In this document: in pieces, positions 2,514 to 34,881 of the stretch
Layout of the letters: every line of letters begins with the position of its first letter
Numbering within the stretch: position 1 is the stretch's first letter
From: Anaerolineae bacterium
GTDB taxonomy: Bacteria > Chloroflexota > Anaerolineae > Aggregatilineales > J027
Assembly (NCBI GenBank): GCA_021463865.1
Contig: JAJTXY010000029.1
Coordinates: forward strand, 1-50,437
Reading direction: 5' to 3'
DNA length: 50,437 bases
Notes under the pieces: model-generated
Databases searched by the model: none
What the model was told of the DNA's origin: nothing
What the model saw: the letters and a program-made list of their open reading frames with translations, nothing else
Made by a program: the position numbers and the translations under genes

Positions 2514-2537
2514 CTGTTTGTCAGAACTACATAGCTG

Positions 2538-2609
2538 TACCCCATCCGCGACTCGAACGCGGGCCTCTGCCTCCGGAGGGCAACGCTCTATCCACTGAGC
2601 TAATGGGGC
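2538..2609 (-). tRNA. tRNA-Arg (anticodon CCG)
   Basis: A full cloverleaf reads on the minus strand: acceptor GCCCCAT/ATGGGGT (G1-U72 wobble), D arm GCTC-AGTGGATA-GAGC, anticodon stem TTGCC/GGCAG with loop CTCCGGA, T arm CCGCG-TTCGAGT-CGCGG, discriminator A. The anticodon CCG reads CGG arginine codons. It is 72 bases long and CCA is not encoded (CA follows the discriminator), so CCA must be added after transcription. A promoter and a terminator flank it, so it is a single-gene unit. Confidence 0.95.
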
Positions 2610-20042: not shown

Positions 20043-21602
20043 TCACATCTTCATGCTCTCCGATCCATTGATCGGCACAAAAAGCCCCAACAAAGCCTCC
20101 ACCCCGGCGGCTAAAGATGGTTTGCTGTCGCCACAGGTACACAGAATCGTCTCGCATTCTGACAAAACCTCAACATCATACGGGTTACGCAGGGCCATCA
20201 AAATTACTTGTTTAGAAAGGGTCAATAAATCACGGGCCACATTCAACTGATCGGTAATTAAATGGGCATTCCGCGTCGCCACCACCAATACATCCGACTG
20301 CGCTGCTAACTCTCGCGCACGGGCTAAATCTTCAGGGGGATAATCCATCGGGTGCAAGCTGACACTTGGAATATAGGGCGCATGTTGGTGCAATAAATAG
20401 GCAAATCCGCTTAAACCGCCCTGCTCCATAATTTCCGAATCTATAATCGAGGCAAATTCGACCACCCCAATTTTTGCCCCCTCACGTAGCGGGAAAATAT
20501 CCGGTTCGGATTTCACCAGCACGACCCCCGCACGTGCCGCTTGGTGAGCCAATGCCAAATGTTCAGGTTTACGAATGACCTCAAGCTGTGGTTTTTCAGA
20601 AATCGCGTATTTTTCTTTGAGTGCCATCACCCGTGCAATCGCCTCATTAATGCGGGTCATCGGTAGCCGCCCGGATTGCACCGCATCCAATAACGAATAA
20701 TAGACCTCCACGCTAAGGGGGTGTTGATCGGTGAAACTGTGCGAGAACAAAATCAAATCCACGCCTGCCAATGCCGCCAAAACCGCTGATTCGCCCGACC
20801 CATAGTGATCGGCAATTGCTTTCATCTCCATACAATCGGTACAGGCCACCCCCGTAAAACCAATTTCGCGGCGCAGCAGGTCTTGAATGATACGAGGCGA
20901 TAGTGTAGCCGGATAGTCAGGGTCGAGTTCGGTGAATTTGACATGGCTAATCATCACCGTCGCTGTGCCCTCATTCACAACAGCCCGAAACGGCACGAGA
21001 TCATGCTCCCACAAATAATCGAGTGAGCCATCAATGACCGCCAGCGCCAAGTGGGTATCCACCGGGGTATTGCCCAAGCCGGGGAAATGTTTGGCACTCG
21101 CCGCGACATGGTTTTTTTGAAATCCGCGCACTTGCGCCGCTGCCAATTGCGCTACCCGTGTTTTATCGCGCCCCAACGAGCGTGTACCGACGCTTGGGTT
21201 GGAAATATCGTGGGTGATGTCCACCACCGGGGCGAGATTCCAATTGATGCCGAGCGCCCGTAGTTCAGTCGCCAGCATTTCGGATACGTCCTCCGCCAAT
21301 GATTCCGAATCCGCCACACCCAATGCCATCGCACCGGGGCTTTCGGTGAAACCATCGCGCAGGCGGGCCACCGTGCCACCCTCTTGGTCAATACAAATCA
21401 GCAGGGGGTATTTCGACGCTTGATGAAAGGTTTGGGTGAGCTTGGCGACCTGCTGAGGATTTTGAATATTGCGCCCAAACAGGATGACCCCGCCAATACG
21501 ACCCTCTGCCAGCCATTGCAATAAATATTCGGGGGCTTCATAGCCATGAAAGCCCACCACCAGCATCTGCCCAATTTTTTCTTCAAGAGTCGTTGGGTGC
21601 AT
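20043..21602 (-). CDS. nagZ: Beta-N-acetylglucosaminidase NagZ (GH3)
   Basis: Removes non-reducing GlcNAc from GlcNAc-MurNAc and GlcNAc-anhydroMurNAc muropeptides. It has 519 residues: a GH3 barrel (1-330) plus a C-terminal Rossmann-like domain, the two-domain form known from Bacillus NagZ rather than the ~340-residue Gram-negative form. Signatures are GRIGGVILFGRNI, CIDQEGGTVARL (70-81), KHFPGLGNTPVDTH (171-184) with the D182-H184 acid/base dyad, and nucleophile D256 in ACTDCMEMKAI. No signal peptide, so cytoplasmic. TAGGA precedes the ATG; it begins three bases after the GntR regulator stop. Confidence 0.94.
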   Translation of the reverse strand: MHPTTLEEKIGQMLVVGFHGYEAPEYLLQWLAEGRIGGVILFGRNIQNPQQVAKLTQTFHQASKYPLLICIDQEGGTVARLRDGFTESPGAMALGVADSESLAEDVSEMLATELRALGINWNLAPVVDITHDISNPSVGTRSLGRDKTRVAQLAAAQVRGFQKNHVAASAKHFPGLGNTPVDTHLALAVIDGSLDYLWEHDLVPFRAVVNEGTATVMISHVKFTELDPDYPATLSPRIIQDLLRREIGFTGVACTDCMEMKAIADHYGSGESAVLAALAGVDLILFSHSFTDQHPLSVEVYYSLLDAVQSGRLPMTRINEAIARVMALKEKYAISEKPQLEVIRKPEHLALAHQAARAGVVLVKSEPDIFPLREGAKIGVVEFASIIDSEIMEQGGLSGFAYLLHQHAPYIPSVSLHPMDYPPEDLARARELAAQSDVLVVATRNAHLITDQLNVARDLLTLSKQVILMALRNPYDVEVLSECETILCTCGDSKPSLAAGVEALLGLFVPINGSESMKM

Positions 21603-29831: not shown

Positions 29832-31025
29832 ATGACCCATTTTAGCATTCAGCTTGAAAAATTAAATCAGGCAGTCGGGATTCTTCAAGAAAAACAAATT
29901 GACGCTTGGATGACCTTTGTACGTGAAACGTCCCATAATGCTGACCCGGCACTTGGCCTTATTGTGGGCATGAATTTGACGTGGCAGTCGGCCTTTATTA
30001 TTACCCGCAGCGGCGAAAAAATCGCCATCGTGGGGCGCTATGATGCTGAAAATGTTGAGCGTATAGGCGGCTTTACGGAAATTATCGGCTACGACCAGAG
30101 CATCCAGCCCGAATTGCAGCGGATTTTGAAACGGCTCAATCCCCGCCAGATCGCCCTTAATTATTCCGAAAACGACTCCGCCGCCGATGGCCTTTCGCAC
30201 GGGATGTATCTCATCTTGAAACGCTATCTACAAGGCACGCCCTACGAACTGATCTCTGCCGAAGGTATCCTGAATTCGCTACGAGGTCGCAAATCTGCCA
30301 CCGAAATCGCCCGCATTCGCCAAGCCGTCAAACTTACCGAAGAAATCATTGACCAGATCACCGGCTATCTCCGCCCCGGTCTGCATGAAAGGGAAATCGC
30401 CGAGTTTATTCATGCCGAAATAAACAAGCGCGGTCTTACTCCGGCGTGGGAACCCGAATATTGCCCGATTGTGAATTGCGGCCCGGATTCACCGATTGGA
30501 CATGCCGCACCCTCCGAAAAATACGTTTCGCAGGCTGGACAGTTGGTTCATGTGGATTTGGGGGTCTATTTTGAGGATTATGTCTCCGATATGCAGCGGG
30601 TGTGGTATTTGCAGCCTGTCAGCGAAACCAACATTCCCCAACCGATTTTGAACGGGTTTAAGGTCGTCAGTGGCGCGATTCAAGCCGCCGCCGATGTCAT
30701 GCAACCAGGGGTAACAGGCAACGCAGTGGACACCGCCGCCCGTCAGCATATCATCCAAAACGGCTATCCCGAATTTTTACACGCCACCGGACATCAAATT
30801 GGTCGCACGGTACACGATGGGTCAACCTTGTTAGGGCCGATGTGGGAAAAATATGGACAAAGTCCAATGGGCCTGCTTGAAGTCGGCAATGCCTACACCC
30901 TCGAACTCGGTGTCCAAGTGCCGCACTATGGTCTCGTAGCGCTAGAAGAAGATGTGATTGTAACTGAAAATGGCATGGAATGGCTTGCCAAACCCCAAAC
31001 CGAGCCGATTATCGTGAGGATGTAG
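29832..31025 (+). CDS. M24 family Xaa-Pro aminopeptidase-like metallopeptidase
   Basis: Dinuclear metal peptidase with a creatinase-type N-terminal domain (1-150) and a pita-bread catalytic domain (about 155-397). The five metal ligands of the family are visible: D in HVDLGVYF, D in VSDMQRVW, H in HATGHQIG, E in TLELGVQVP and E in ALEEDV. The N-terminal domain and length (397 residues) fit Xaa-Pro dipeptidase/aminopeptidase rather than methionine aminopeptidase. Start ATG 29832 follows GAAGGA; the frame extends upstream without a ribosome site. It is divergent from the PIG-L gene. Confidence 0.9.
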   Translation: MTHFSIQLEKLNQAVGILQEKQIDAWMTFVRETSHNADPALGLIVGMNLTWQSAFIITRSGEKIAIVGRYDAENVERIGGFTEIIGYDQSIQPELQRILKRLNPRQIALNYSENDSAADGLSHGMYLILKRYLQGTPYELISAEGILNSLRGRKSATEIARIRQAVKLTEEIIDQITGYLRPGLHEREIAEFIHAEINKRGLTPAWEPEYCPIVNCGPDSPIGHAAPSEKYVSQAGQLVHVDLGVYFEDYVSDMQRVWYLQPVSETNIPQPILNGFKVVSGAIQAAADVMQPGVTGNAVDTAARQHIIQNGYPEFLHATGHQIGRTVHDGSTLLGPMWEKYGQSPMGLLEVGNAYTLELGVQVPHYGLVALEEDVIVTENGMEWLAKPQTEPIIVRM

Positions 31026-31036
31026 ATGATATTGCT

Positions 31037-31435
31037 ATGGAACTACTCATATACTGCCGAGATAAATACACGGTAAATGAAAATCCAACGGAGCAAGATG
31101 TTATAGCTTCCATTCAGCAACTTGATGGACTAGATTATGGAACTATAATATTGATCAATGTTCATGAAAGGCTATTTATAGATTGCTCGGCAAATCGGCG
31201 CATGTTGGGAATGCTCGCCCATCGGGAAGGAGGCTTCTCTCTATTAAGAGATAAAGCTGTAACCGACGACTCGCTTGTAAGATTTCGCTTATCAAATGGT
31301 CAAGTTGATATTTATCCCATGTTTAGAACGGTTGAGGAAAATCAAATGATTGATACGGCACTAGCCTTTCTAAACGAGACGCCATTCTCCCTGTCGGAAA
31401 ATCTGAGGTGGGAGCACGAAAGTGAGCTTCCCTAA
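31037..31435 (+). CDS. Hypothetical protein, possibly an immunity-type protein
   Basis: A 132-residue acidic, soluble protein, starting MELLIYCRDKYTVNENPTEQ. Size, acidity and the pattern of two short beta strands around TIILINVHERLFIDC and GGFSLLRD resemble small immunity proteins such as those of the Imm1 group, but I cannot confirm a family. Base composition is visibly more AT-rich than the flanking genes. The frame is open back to 30980, overlapping the peptidase gene; ATG 31037 lies 11 bases after the peptidase stop with only a distant GAGG. No toxin gene is adjacent. Confidence 0.6.
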   Translation: MELLIYCRDKYTVNENPTEQDVIASIQQLDGLDYGTIILINVHERLFIDCSANRRMLGMLAHREGGFSLLRDKAVTDDSLVRFRLSNGQVDIYPMFRTVEENQMIDTALAFLNETPFSLSENLRWEHESELP

Positions 31436-31475: not shown

Positions 31476-33290
31476 TCACGATTTTTCTGTGATGGTGACA
31501 CGCTTCCATGTATCACTAATGCGTTTTCGCAAGAGGCGTTCCCGTTCTTTCAAGACACCCGTTGCCCGGATCAACAATGTGCCGATAATTTCAGGGGTGT
31601 CTTCCGAAAGCTCATGCGGTTCTAAGGCAGGTAGTGGTTCATCGGGAAAAGAAACGGTAGAAGTGGGTGGATTAAACACATAGGGTTCATCGTAATTGCC
31701 CTGCGCGATACGGGTGGCCCAACTGGTGCTGGCCTCCACTGACACAGTGGTGTAGCGCAGTTTTTCAGCCAGATATTGCAGCATAGCGAGGACGACCTGA
31801 GGACGGCTTTGCATAAACATCATAAACGCCTGCCGCTTTAACACCAGAACTTTGACCTCCCCCACCGCAAGCGCACGTGCCGAACGGGGCTGTCCATCCA
31901 GTAGGGAAAATTCGCCCACCACGTCCCCGGCCCGGAAAGTTCGCAAGAACTTATCTTCGCCGTCCCGGTTAGACGTCACATAGGCATTGATATTGCCCTC
32001 TTCAATCATATACATGGAATCGCCCGTCGCGCCTTGATCGAAAATAACCGCACCGTCAGGATAATTTTCAACCACAATCGCCCGACAGAGATTTTCAAGA
32101 TTGGTCAGTGACACATTGCGGAAGATTTCCATGTGGCTCAGGCGCTCGGCCATCGCGGACAACTGCTCAACTGTAAAAGTCTCCGCCAATTCGGAAACAC
32201 GCATAAACATATCAAAGGTATGTACCAATGTCGGATCATAATCCACTAATTCGGCATTCACCATATCCCAAAGCGCTTGATCTTCAGCCGGAAACACCCG
32301 GCGCATAAAACTAGTAACGTAGACGCCCAATTGAGTGCGGATTTCATCATTTTCGCGCTGATATTCGGCGATTTCCTCTTGCCATGCCCGCTTCAACCGA
32401 TCACTGACTTGGCTTTTCAGATTATTCTGCAAAATTCCGATATTGGCTTGCACCACGAGTAGACGGCGAATGAGGGTGATGTTTTCCTGCCCAAAAAAAT
32501 CTTTCATCTCGCCCAAAATCTGCTCGATACCATTTCCACCAAGACGCTGAACGGCCTTGCGTTCGCCTGCCGAAACCCCCACGTCCAAACCGAGGGTCTG
32601 TTCAAAGCGGCGTTTTTCTTCTTGAAGACCCTGATTCATGACAAATGCAATGAAGGCACTGCCGGAAAAACCCAGCGTAATGGCAAACAGCAGCAAAAAT
32701 CGCCCATCGCTGTAATCTTCAATTTGGATGAGGCCCGCGTTGTAAATCGTGTGAACAACAATCGCCAGTAAAATCCCTAAGAAGGGAAAGATGCGTTTAT
32801 TCTGTGAGGTGGCCCGTCGGTAACGTCCAAACAAAATCCCGACCATCGCACTGGCGGTGGCGTGCATTAACGAGGTCGAAAGCACCCGGCTGATCGCAGT
32901 CGAAAGTGCCGCATCACCCGCATCGGGCAGATAAATCAAGATGGTCTCCGACATCGCAAAACCTATCCCAACGGCGATTCCATAGATCGTGCCATCTACG
33001 ATGTAACGGAAGCGCGGTTGATAGACGAGGTAAATCAATACCGCAGATTTGAGCAGTTCTTCGAGCGTAGGAGCAACCCGTGTGGTCAGGGTTTCAAATT
33101 CGACACCCCCAAACACCAGTTGATAGGTTAGGTTGGCGATGCCAAATGCCCCAATTGCCCCCCAAGCAAAACTCACCAATACCGTGCTGATTCGACCTGT
33201 GCCATAGAGGTCAAACGCATAGAAAAGGTAGATGGTCAGGGCAGGTATCGCAATCGCAATGACATGAGCGATCAGGGTTGAAAAATCCAT
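31476..33290 (-). CDS. PrsW-type intramembrane metalloprotease fused to a cyclic-nucleotide-binding domain
   Basis: A 604-residue membrane protein. Residues 1-215 hold about seven hydrophobic segments with the PrsW motifs: APTLEELLKS (E77, E78, K81), GFAMSETI (F111, E115), H143 in SLMHATAS and H180 in VVHTIYN. Residues 220-400 are helical and charged. Residues 405-500 form a CAP-like cyclic-nucleotide-binding domain with FDQGATGDSMYMIEEG and the phosphate-binding cassette GEFSLLDGQPRSARA, including its arginine. A ~100-residue tail follows. The composition implies a protease gated by cAMP or a related nucleotide. The start at 33290 lacks a strong ribosome site but lies 32 bases from a predicted promoter. 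Confidence 0.88.
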   Translation of the reverse strand: MDFSTLIAHVIAIAIPALTIYLFYAFDLYGTGRISTVLVSFAWGAIGAFGIANLTYQLVFGGVEFETLTTRVAPTLEELLKSAVLIYLVYQPRFRYIVDGTIYGIAVGIGFAMSETILIYLPDAGDAALSTAISRVLSTSLMHATASAMVGILFGRYRRATSQNKRIFPFLGILLAIVVHTIYNAGLIQIEDYSDGRFLLLFAITLGFSGSAFIAFVMNQGLQEEKRRFEQTLGLDVGVSAGERKAVQRLGGNGIEQILGEMKDFFGQENITLIRRLLVVQANIGILQNNLKSQVSDRLKRAWQEEIAEYQRENDEIRTQLGVYVTSFMRRVFPAEDQALWDMVNAELVDYDPTLVHTFDMFMRVSELAETFTVEQLSAMAERLSHMEIFRNVSLTNLENLCRAIVVENYPDGAVIFDQGATGDSMYMIEEGNINAYVTSNRDGEDKFLRTFRAGDVVGEFSLLDGQPRSARALAVGEVKVLVLKRQAFMMFMQSRPQVVLAMLQYLAEKLRYTTVSVEASTSWATRIAQGNYDEPYVFNPPTSTVSFPDEPLPALEPHELSEDTPEIIGTLLIRATGVLKERERLLRKRISDTWKRVTITEKS

Positions 33291-33322
33291 ATTGCGCTTT
33301 CGAGATAGGGTTTTATCCGTTG

Positions 33323-33350
33323 ATTATAATGGAATACCGCCTCTCGTAAA
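33323..33350 (-). promoter_or_regulatory. Promoter of the PrsW-fusion gene
   Basis: Minus strand TTTACG (33345-33350), 16-base spacer, consensus TATAAT (33323-33328). Because ATTATAAT is symmetric, a plus-strand TATAAT also exists at 33325-33330, but no fitting -35 is seen for that direction. Confidence 0.55.
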
Positions 33351-33404
33351 AACGGAGAAATTTTGTCGCAACAGGTCGCCGGATGTGCTACCATTAACGT
33401 ACTT

Positions 33405-33418
33405 GTCGCATTTGCGAC
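33405..33418. promoter_or_regulatory. Palindrome upstream of the Mo-hydroxylase operon
   Basis: GTCGCATTTGCGAC, six-base arms around TT, ends 20 bases before the ATG of the first subunit gene. The sequence TTGTCGCA occurs a second time at 33363-33371. The position fits an operator for an unknown regulator. Confidence 0.4.
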
Positions 33419-33438
33419 CTTCTACGGTAGGGAATTTC

Positions 33439-34881
33439 ATGTGGAAAAACTATTTTAGTGTAACCCATTTGGACGAAGCATTGACGCTGTTGGCCCAGCA
33501 CCGTGAAAGCGCCCGAATTGTCGCTGGCGCAACCGATCTTTTGATTGAAATTGAGCGCAACCAACGGCCCGGCCTTGAAACCTTGATAGACATTACTCGC
33601 TTGCAGGGTCTCGACACGATTACCTTTGATGGACAATCCATTCAACTTGGGCCACTGGTGACACATAATCAGGTCGTCGCCAGTGATTTGCTTGTGCAAC
33701 AGGCCTTTCCGTTAGCTCAAGCCTGTTGGGAGGTTGGTGCGCCGCAAATTCGTAATCGAGCAACTGTTGCAGGCAATCTGATCACCGCCAGCCCTGCCAA
33801 TGATACGATTACCCCGCTGTGGGCTTTAGATGGGTCGGTTACACTCGCTTCGACTGCTGGCACACGAACACTGAGTTTTGCCGATTTTTATAAGGGTGTG
33901 CGAAAAACCGCCATGCGACCAGATGAACTGCTCACTGTGATTCACTTCAGGCCGATGGTGGAAAATGAACGGGGAATCTTCCTTAAATTAGGCTTACGCC
34001 GCGCCCAAGCCATCTCAGTCGTCAATATTGCGGTGATTCTTGGCTTTGATGGGGATCAGATTACCCATGCGCGAATCACCCTCGGCAGTGTTGCCCCAAC
34101 GATTATCCGTGTATCGGATGCAGAAACCTATCTACAAGGGCGCACCCTGACTGATGCCACGATTGTAGAAGTCGCTAAACTTTCGGCGGCAACCCCAAAA
34201 CCCATTAGTGATGTCCGCGCCACCGCTGACTATCGAACCGAAATGGTTAAGGTATTGACAGCCCGTGCCCTGCGAATGCTGCGTGACCATCAAGAGCGTA
34301 CCCATTGGCCTGAAAATCCTACTATGCTCTGGGGCACAAATTACACCGCACAGCATTCTCTCCTACCTGCTTCCGTTCGCCATGAAGATGATGCCAGCGA
34401 CACGATTGTGACGACGGTCAATGGCAAAAAACATACGGTAACTGGCGCGTCCAATAAGAGCCTGTTACGATTTTTGCGCGATGATATTCGCTTAACAGGT
34501 ACAAAAGAAGGCTGTGCTGAAGGCGAATGCGGCGCATGTACCGTTTATCTGGATGGGGTCGCGGTCATGGCGTGTATGGTGCCTGCCCCCCGCGCACATG
34601 GGGCGGACATCGTAACGGTAGAAGGATTAGCTGAAGAGACTGCCTTACACCCGATTCAACAAGCCTTTATAGAGACGGGTGGTGTGCAGTGCGGATTCTG
34701 CACGCCCGGTTTTCTGATGTCCGGCGCGAAATTATTGGAGGAACATCCCCGCCCCACCCGCGAGCAAATTGCCCAAAGTATTTCGGGTAATCTGTGTCGT
34801 TGCACGGGCTACTATAAAATCATTGATGCTTTTGAACTTGCAAGCGAAATAGCACAACAGAAGGAGCAAGTCAGCCCATGA
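33439..34881 (+). CDS. Molybdenum hydroxylase FAD subunit fused to 2Fe-2S subunit
   Basis: Electron-transfer half of a xanthine-dehydrogenase-family enzyme, 480 residues. The N-terminal FAD domain (about 1-290) has ARIVAGATDLLIEIERNQRP, GAPQIRNRATVAGNLITASP and the CO-dehydrogenase-type C-terminal subdomain. The C-terminal part (about 315-480) is the two-cluster iron-sulfur subunit: plant-type cluster C359, C364, C367, C379 and the helical-domain cluster in GVQCGFCTPGF and NLCRCTGYY. The order FAD then FeS reverses that of fused eukaryotic-type XDH. The frame is open upstream to 33292; ATG 33439 follows TAGGGA and matches the family start. The next gene overlaps as ATGA. Confidence 0.92.
   Translation: MWKNYFSVTHLDEALTLLAQHRESARIVAGATDLLIEIERNQRPGLETLIDITRLQGLDTITFDGQSIQLGPLVTHNQVVASDLLVQQAFPLAQACWEVGAPQIRNRATVAGNLITASPANDTITPLWALDGSVTLASTAGTRTLSFADFYKGVRKTAMRPDELLTVIHFRPMVENERGIFLKLGLRRAQAISVVNIAVILGFDGDQITHARITLGSVAPTIIRVSDAETYLQGRTLTDATIVEVAKLSAATPKPISDVRATADYRTEMVKVLTARALRMLRDHQERTHWPENPTMLWGTNYTAQHSLLPASVRHEDDASDTIVTTVNGKKHTVTGASNKSLLRFLRDDIRLTGTKEGCAEGECGACTVYLDGVAVMACMVPAPRAHGADIVTVEGLAEETALHPIQQAFIETGGVQCGFCTPGFLMSGAKLLEEHPRPTREQIAQSISGNLCRCTGYYKIIDAFELASEIAQQKEQVSP

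Follow-up and report, generated by a model that had tools for sequence, protein, structure and literature searches.

A gene in the window (the whole stretch of 50,437 nucleotides analysed here) places a PrsW-type membrane protease domain and a cyclic-nucleotide binding (cNMP) domain in one chain, raising the question of whether a second messenger inside the cell might set the protease and, if so, on which substrate it would act. Cyclic nucleotides act mostly on transcription factors or kinases, and the site-1 step of regulated intramembrane proteolysis is as a rule controlled from the cell exterior, so that a link of this kind, if true, would join two routes that are usually apart. To our knowledge, how PrsW itself is switched on is unsettled. 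An outline of regulated intramembrane proteolysis describes PrsW of Bacillus subtilis (YpdC, PF13367) as the site-1 protease acting on the anti-sigma factor RsiW (PMC3498285).

Domains, conservation and predicted topology

The gene is a single unbroken ORF from an ATG in the ORF list of the window (Table 1). The domain-architecture search proposed in the initial annotation found both Pfam domains far over their cut-offs, PF13367 at E 1.8e-26 (93.4 bits against 23.5) and PF00027 at E 6.1e-21 (74.6 bits against 27.5). With the NCBIfam equivalog for glutamic-type PrsW (NF033739) the protein scored 63.3 bits, below the cut-off of 225, indicative of a member of the PrsW superfamily rather than an orthologue of B. 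subtilis PrsW. Full-length orthologues are present in four sister genomes (L063, L064, L065 and L066; 96.4, 95.0, 94.7 and 86.6% identity) and have the same flanking genes, encoding a PIG-L deacetylase, an M24 peptidase and xanthine dehydrogenase/molybdenum-cofactor proteins. NG86 estimates of dN and dS for three orthologue pairs were 0.018/0.40, 0.026/0.54 and 0.081/1.38 (the last dS being near saturation), corresponding to ratios of 0.045-0.06, and the gene is under purifying selection. The intact ORF, Pfam scores, orthologues and low dN/dS rule out a chance ORF or pseudogene. A toxin-type PrsW fusion (cf. PMC3482391) was also rejected, as Pfam found no toxin domain and the C-terminus is the cNMP domain.

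All four motifs listed for the PrsW family, EExxK, FxxxE, H and HxxxD/N (PMC12943098), are present, and an alignment of 44 relatives shows no variation at E77, E78, K81, F111, E115, H143, H180 and N184. The phosphate-binding cassette reads G459-E460-FSLLDGQP-R469-S-A, with both the expected glutamate and the expected arginine, residues which we take to have roles in nucleotide binding. The claim that all PrsW motifs and a canonical cassette stand in one chain is thus borne out by Pfam, the 44-row alignment and the cassette itself.

An AlphaFold2 model of the protein built on the 44 rows (mean pLDDT 83.4, pTM 0.59) has transmembrane (TM) helices up to about residue 225, cytosolic helices over residues 241-332, a linker of low confidence near residues 340-370 and a cNMP fold at about residues 374-529. 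The protein is predicted to have about seven TM helices with the PrsW motifs lying within the membrane, and loop charges suggest an N-out, C-in orientation, which would place the sensor in the cytosol. The modelled cNMP part best matches CRP-type cAMP receptors in a structure search that bore almost entirely on this part (e.g. 7pza_B; Z 19.6, 145 residues, 1.9 Å). The cytosolic helical region (modelled helices 241-248, 253-266, 268-291 and 297-332) is common to fused and separate forms of the protease, relatives matching through about residue 350, with E243 invariant and Q281 and A282 at least 90% conserved in the 44-row alignment.

Table 1. Position in the window, strand and supporting basis of the features of the PrsW-cNMP gene
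Feature	Position	Strand	Basis
PrsW-cNMP fusion gene, 604 aa	31476..33290	(-)	ORF, Pfam, conservation and purifying selection
PrsW-protease domain PF13367, aa 35-193	32712..33188	(-)	Pfam
PrsW motif 1 EExxK, aa 77-81, predicted TM3	33048..33062	(-)	E77, E78, K81 invariant; model helix 65-89
PrsW motif 2 FxxxE, aa 111-115, predicted TM4	32946..32960	(-)	F111, E115 invariant
PrsW motif 3 H143, predicted TM5	32862..32864	(-)	invariant
PrsW motif 4 HxxxN, aa 180-184, predicted TM6	32739..32753	(-)	H180, N184 invariant
Predicted cytosolic helical region, aa 241-332, candidate signal relay	32295..32570	(-)	model and relatives
cNMP_binding domain PF00027, aa 408-495	31806..32069	(-)	Pfam; model matches CRP-type proteins
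Phosphate-binding cassette GEFSLLDGQPRSA, aa 459-471, with E460 and R469	31878..31916	(-)	sequence
C-terminal predicted helix, aa 565-603, modest confidence	31482..31598	(-)	model
Sigma-70-like promoter TTTACG-16-TATAAT upstream of the gene	33323..33350	(-)	pattern search

Relatives and their gene clusters

About 85,000 species genomes were scanned with one conserved peptide, yielding 154 relatives, and the best 80 of these were kept, 79 labelled Chloroflexota and one labelled 'Pleurocapsa minor'. The latter, a cyanobacterial record (L134), encodes a fused PrsW-cNMP protein that groups with an Anaerolineae sequence in the tree, possibly reflecting a mislabelled or mixed assembly, or transfer. 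PrsW and cNMP domains are fused in 32 and separate in 48 of these best 80 of 154 loci. Of the 48 separate loci, 36 have a strict cNMP domain at a distance of up to 7 kb from PrsW and 25 have one within 200 nt; for the 22 with at least 7 kb of sequence on both sides the counts are 19 and 11, respectively. The strict model was used since a looser one gave 42 of 48, with a nearest match that lacked the cassette region in 12. Several of the 12 separate loci without a strict cNMP neighbour lie near contig ends; L101, L113 and L137 have full flanks yet no strict cNMP domain within 7 kb and are true exceptions. In L101, from the cultured relative Longilinea arvoryzae, PrsW and the closest strict cNMP domain are 9.4 kb apart.

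A tree of 87 PrsW domains indicates at least four changes between the fused and separate states. The large clade containing the window gene is entirely fused (34 rows), and fused forms from L082, L084, L085, L090 and G111 are nested in a clade of separate forms, suggesting that fusion, fission or both occurred repeatedly, the tree itself giving no direction. In G111, the fused gene occupies the slot held by separate PrsW and cNMP genes in related clusters. A search for plasmid relatives returned 141 records, all with query coverage below 80%, and the 15 plasmid matches listed align from residue 251 onwards, that is, with the sensor half.

Around members of this Anaerolineae subfamily there recurs a cluster comprising an ECF sigma factor, a two-helix membrane anti-sigma candidate (TM154), PrsW, a fused or neighbouring cNMP domain, a ParA/MinD ATPase, a small conserved protein (D158) and a class III cyclase. 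At one locus (L044) the order by Pfam is a ParA-type ATPase, an ECF sigma factor with both region 2 and region 4, a 154-residue membrane protein (its ORF and the sigma gene share 4 nt), a PD40 propeller protein, PrsW, a cNMP protein, a ParA-type ATPase, a 158-residue protein that Pfam assigns to no family and, last, a class III cyclase. Two genomes of the window's own order (G055 and G083) have ParA, D158, cyclase, ECF, TM154 and fused PrsW-cNMP genes on one strand, an extra cNMP gene following the fused one in G055. Other lineages have a cyclase with AAA_16 (in G219 and G285 also with TPR) adjoining PrsW. The tandem cyclases have DxxxFT-type motifs in domain 1, and many have Thr or Asn at one domain 2 site where class IIIa cyclases have Asp.

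Within 7 kb of PrsW in the best 80 of 154 loci, contig-end ones included, we counted cyclase at 30, ParA at 50, ECF at 36, TM154 at 35, D158 at 50 and the ECF/TM154 pair at 35. The 22 separate loci with full flanks have cyclase at 16, ParA at 22, D158 at 22, ECF at 14, TM154 at 15 and the pair at 15; the corresponding counts for the 17 fused loci with full flanks are cyclase 2, ParA 3, D158 4 and the pair 6. ParA, ECF, TM154 and D158 were counted with home-made models seeded on members of the same clusters, so that the D158 and TM154 counts are partly true by construction. Four of the 22 separate full-flank loci (L108, L116, L118 and L120) are seed records of the models, and when these are left out cyclase is present at 12, the ECF/TM154 pair at 11 and a strict cNMP domain at 15 of 18.

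Two control sets were available for comparison. Forty 20-kb control segments of the same genomes, set at round coordinates, contained cyclase in 1, cNMP in 3 (2 strict), ParA in 1, ECF in 1, PD40 in 3, and TM154 and D158 in none, the sole cyclase-bearing segment (L182) abutting the G219 cluster. Twenty PrsWs of other subfamilies, chosen by hand and several of them reaching a contig end, have ECF within 7 kb in 5 of 20 and cNMP, cyclase, ParA, TM154 and D158 in 0 of 20. Fused full-flank loci did not differ from the control segments for cyclase (p 0.21) or ParA (p 0.07) by Fisher tests that ignore kinship among loci; such values overstate the evidence, as the best 80 of 154 were found via a single peptide pattern and the loci are related to one another. 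Set against both controls, the counts show that the association with these partners is particular to this PrsW subfamily, strongly so for the separate forms and more weakly for the fused ones.

At L051:5061-6578 (by Pfam) and L130:1288-2808 (by home-made models), in clusters of the same kind, one chain combines a cNMP domain with a ParA/MinD-type ATPase; this is a second type of fusion, here linking the nucleotide sensor with the ATPase. D158 (e.g. L044:8351-8827 and L056:8237-8680) matched neither Pfam nor NCBIfam in the tested examples. A short G-hydrophobic-W/F-D/x-R motif is present in 58 of 75 D158 matches; 15 of the 48 separate PrsWs have it too, in their C-terminal part, and it is possibly a common docking or membrane tag.

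In TM154, about 75 cytosolic residues predicted to form three helices are followed by a TM helix, a short loop in which G-T-A is frequent, another TM helix and a basic tail. The members examined belong to no Pfam family. With an E limit of 1, an NCBIfam anti-sigma model picked up 15 of 28 members (best E 2.3e-7), all below threshold; members examined singly scored no higher than 25.8 bits where the cut-off is 100, and the TM154 of the window's own genome gave no match. The predicted model is poor (pTM 0.26) and gave no convincing PDB match, so a fold assignment was set aside. Its position after the ECF gene, its topology and the sub-threshold NCBIfam matches make TM154 an anti-sigma candidate; the identity of the ECF genes at the relatives and on contig C57 of the window's own genome is upheld by Pfam.

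The window locus and paralogues in its genome

Screened with the models used for the relatives, the 123 ORFs of the 50-kb window contig include no ECF, TM154, cyclase or ParA gene, and no partner genes were found at the loci of the four orthologues, making the window copy an orphan. The promoter call upstream of the gene is weak alone, since the pattern search found 6 sigma-70-like sites against a mean of 3.4 in shuffles; TATAAT is also present upstream of the gene in all four orthologues. A CRP-type operator by the gene was rejected, the one match in 50 kb lying at 20964-20979 against 1.43 expected. On the opposite strand, the xanthine dehydrogenase small-subunit ORF at 33292-34881 (+) has a listed TTG start 1 base from the PrsW-cNMP start; its FAD_binding_5 domain begins at residue 53, which suggests that the true start is probably an ATG near 33439, leaving a divergent promoter region common to both genes. 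A 151-residue ORF without Pfam or NCBIfam match (30980-31435, +) lies between the M24 peptidase gene and PrsW-cNMP, and the only tRNA found in the window by ARAGORN is a tRNA-Arg (ccg) at 2537-2609 (-).

The genome to which the window belongs has four PrsW matches, the window's own and those on contigs C57, C12 and C2. The C57 paralogue is fused, is 49% identical to the window protein and has ECF and TM154 genes on the same strand. The C12 paralogue (G000:C12:130357-131874, L003) is fused with the cassette GEMELLDGQYSTV, which lacks the arginine, and belongs to a clade of 10 tree rows; the C2 PrsW has no cNMP domain. The same genome has 12 matches to class III cyclase, 16 to cNMP and 9 to M50 peptidase, and one clear TM154, that on C57.

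Upstream of the ECF gene on C57 lies a conserved element, GCAACCCGTT-N14-CGAC, a candidate ECF-type promoter. Placing the window gene in the regulon of this ECF was rejected, as the element was not found upstream of it and the only genome match to GCAACCCGTT-N(11-17)-CGAC is the one at the C57 ECF gene. A looser form of the element gave 7 genome matches against 8 for a reversed control, none in contig C22.

Proposed nucleotide sensing, putative substrate and known systems

We give a probability of roughly 0.55 to the reading that the membrane-embedded PrsW-type protease is set by its cytosolic cNMP domain, most likely through cAMP, and that in relatives it cleaves the membrane anti-sigma candidate, a reading in which we infer ligand, catalysis, substrate and direction of control. 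A class III cyclase would make the cyclic nucleotide, which would bind the cassette at E460 and R469 and shift the cNMP domain; the shift would be relayed through cytosolic helices 241-332 to open or close the protease, our guess being that the ligand activates rather than inhibits. The probable substrate in relatives is the two-helix membrane protein encoded just after the ECF sigma factor, which may be cut near its short outer loop, becoming a site-2 protease substrate and so freeing the sigma factor. The orphan paralogue of the window may act in trans on the genome's one TM154 or on another substrate.

The initial annotation had proposed second-messenger control, through the nucleotide sensor, of a PrsW acting on an anti-sigma factor. 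That idea is supported in part: it gains independently from the relatives, with an ECF/TM154 pair at 35 and a cyclase within 7 kb at 30 of the best 80 of 154 loci and, in split relatives, the cNMP domain encoded as a separate neighbour, and it loses from the window's own contig, where the ECF, TM154, cyclase and ParA genes are missing. The wider proposal, that Anaerolineae have an anti-sigma cascade fired from inside by a cyclic nucleotide, instead of or alongside outside stress, through a cyclase-cNMP-ParA/MinD-PrsW-anti-sigma-ECF module with orphan and sensor-blind paralogues, we hold tentatively, at slightly under even odds.

Judged from sequence, cAMP is the likeliest ligand of the sensor; the cNMP fold and cassette fit cAMP, cGMP or another nucleotide alike. 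As cNMP folds frequently have other ligands or none at all, the domain could instead have lost nucleotide sensing and serve for docking or dimerisation, the protease being constitutive or regulated via its membrane part. We consider this unlikely: the cassette keeps E or D together with R in 28 of 38 fused sequences examined, all 36 separate cNMP partners have the glutamate and 35 of them the arginine, and cyclases are found repeatedly in the clusters. The other 10 of 38 fused sequences, the C12 paralogue among them, lack the arginine, form one clade in the tree and, in the rows aligned, retain the PrsW motifs, as a non-sensing domain would allow; we read them as a probable sensor-blind side branch of a nucleotide-gated protease.

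A substrate outside sigma control, such as an envelope protein or a ParA/MinD partner, with the ECF link limited to some relatives of a regulated protease, would fit the excess of ParA (22) over the ECF/TM154 pair (15) in the 22 full-flank separate loci and the lack of the pair at the window and orthologue loci. This too seems doubtful given the pair at 10 of 32 fused and 25 of 48 separate loci and at the C57 paralogue, and given the cleavage of RsiW by B. subtilis PrsW (PMC3498285). Thirdly, inactivity is known from members of other membrane protease families, but a catalytically dead PrsW serving as membrane anchor or chaperone for the sensor is very improbable here, the catalytic motif residues being invariant in 44 rows and dN/dS low. 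On the preferred reading of a nucleotide-set protease, ligand control could be tested directly, since one and the same protease occurs naturally in fused, separate, orphan and arginine-less form and a candidate substrate is encoded in the same operon.

The fusion type itself is already known since 2012, from one clause in Zhang et al. (2012; PMC3482391), which reports PrsW fused to PilZ, cyclic nucleotide binding, FHA and Zn-ribbon domains in several bacteria and proposes signalling peptidases that cleave together with sensed signals. The architecture class of the window gene is the same, whereas the main-text sentence on those fusions contains no cyclase/ParA/ECF/anti-sigma cluster; what appears new relative to that sentence is the genomic setting. 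We found no paper on a PrsW/cNMP/cyclase/ECF cluster in the open-access literature, weak evidence given that subscription papers lie mostly outside it and that differently worded mentions, such as that of PMC3482391, can be missed.

Like B. subtilis PrsW, the window protein has PF13367 over the cut-off, the four motifs and about seven predicted TM helices, with relatives near pairs of ECF and anti-sigma candidate genes. Unlike it, the window protein falls below the equivalog cut-off and has an added cytosolic helical region and cNMP domain, and the putative substrate in relatives matches no Pfam family and exposes a short loop on the outside. Leptospira LIC_20173, a PrsW-PilZ protein proposed for anti-sigma control (PMC12943098), likewise pairs a membrane protease with a C-terminal cytosolic domain of second-messenger type, but its sensor is a PilZ domain described there as non-canonical rather than a cNMP fold. 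In fold and phosphate-binding cassette the window sensor resembles the CRP/GlxR/Clr-type cAMP receptors and the regulatory domains of PKA and PKG, whose output is DNA binding or kinase inhibition, whereas the output of the window protein would be a membrane protease.
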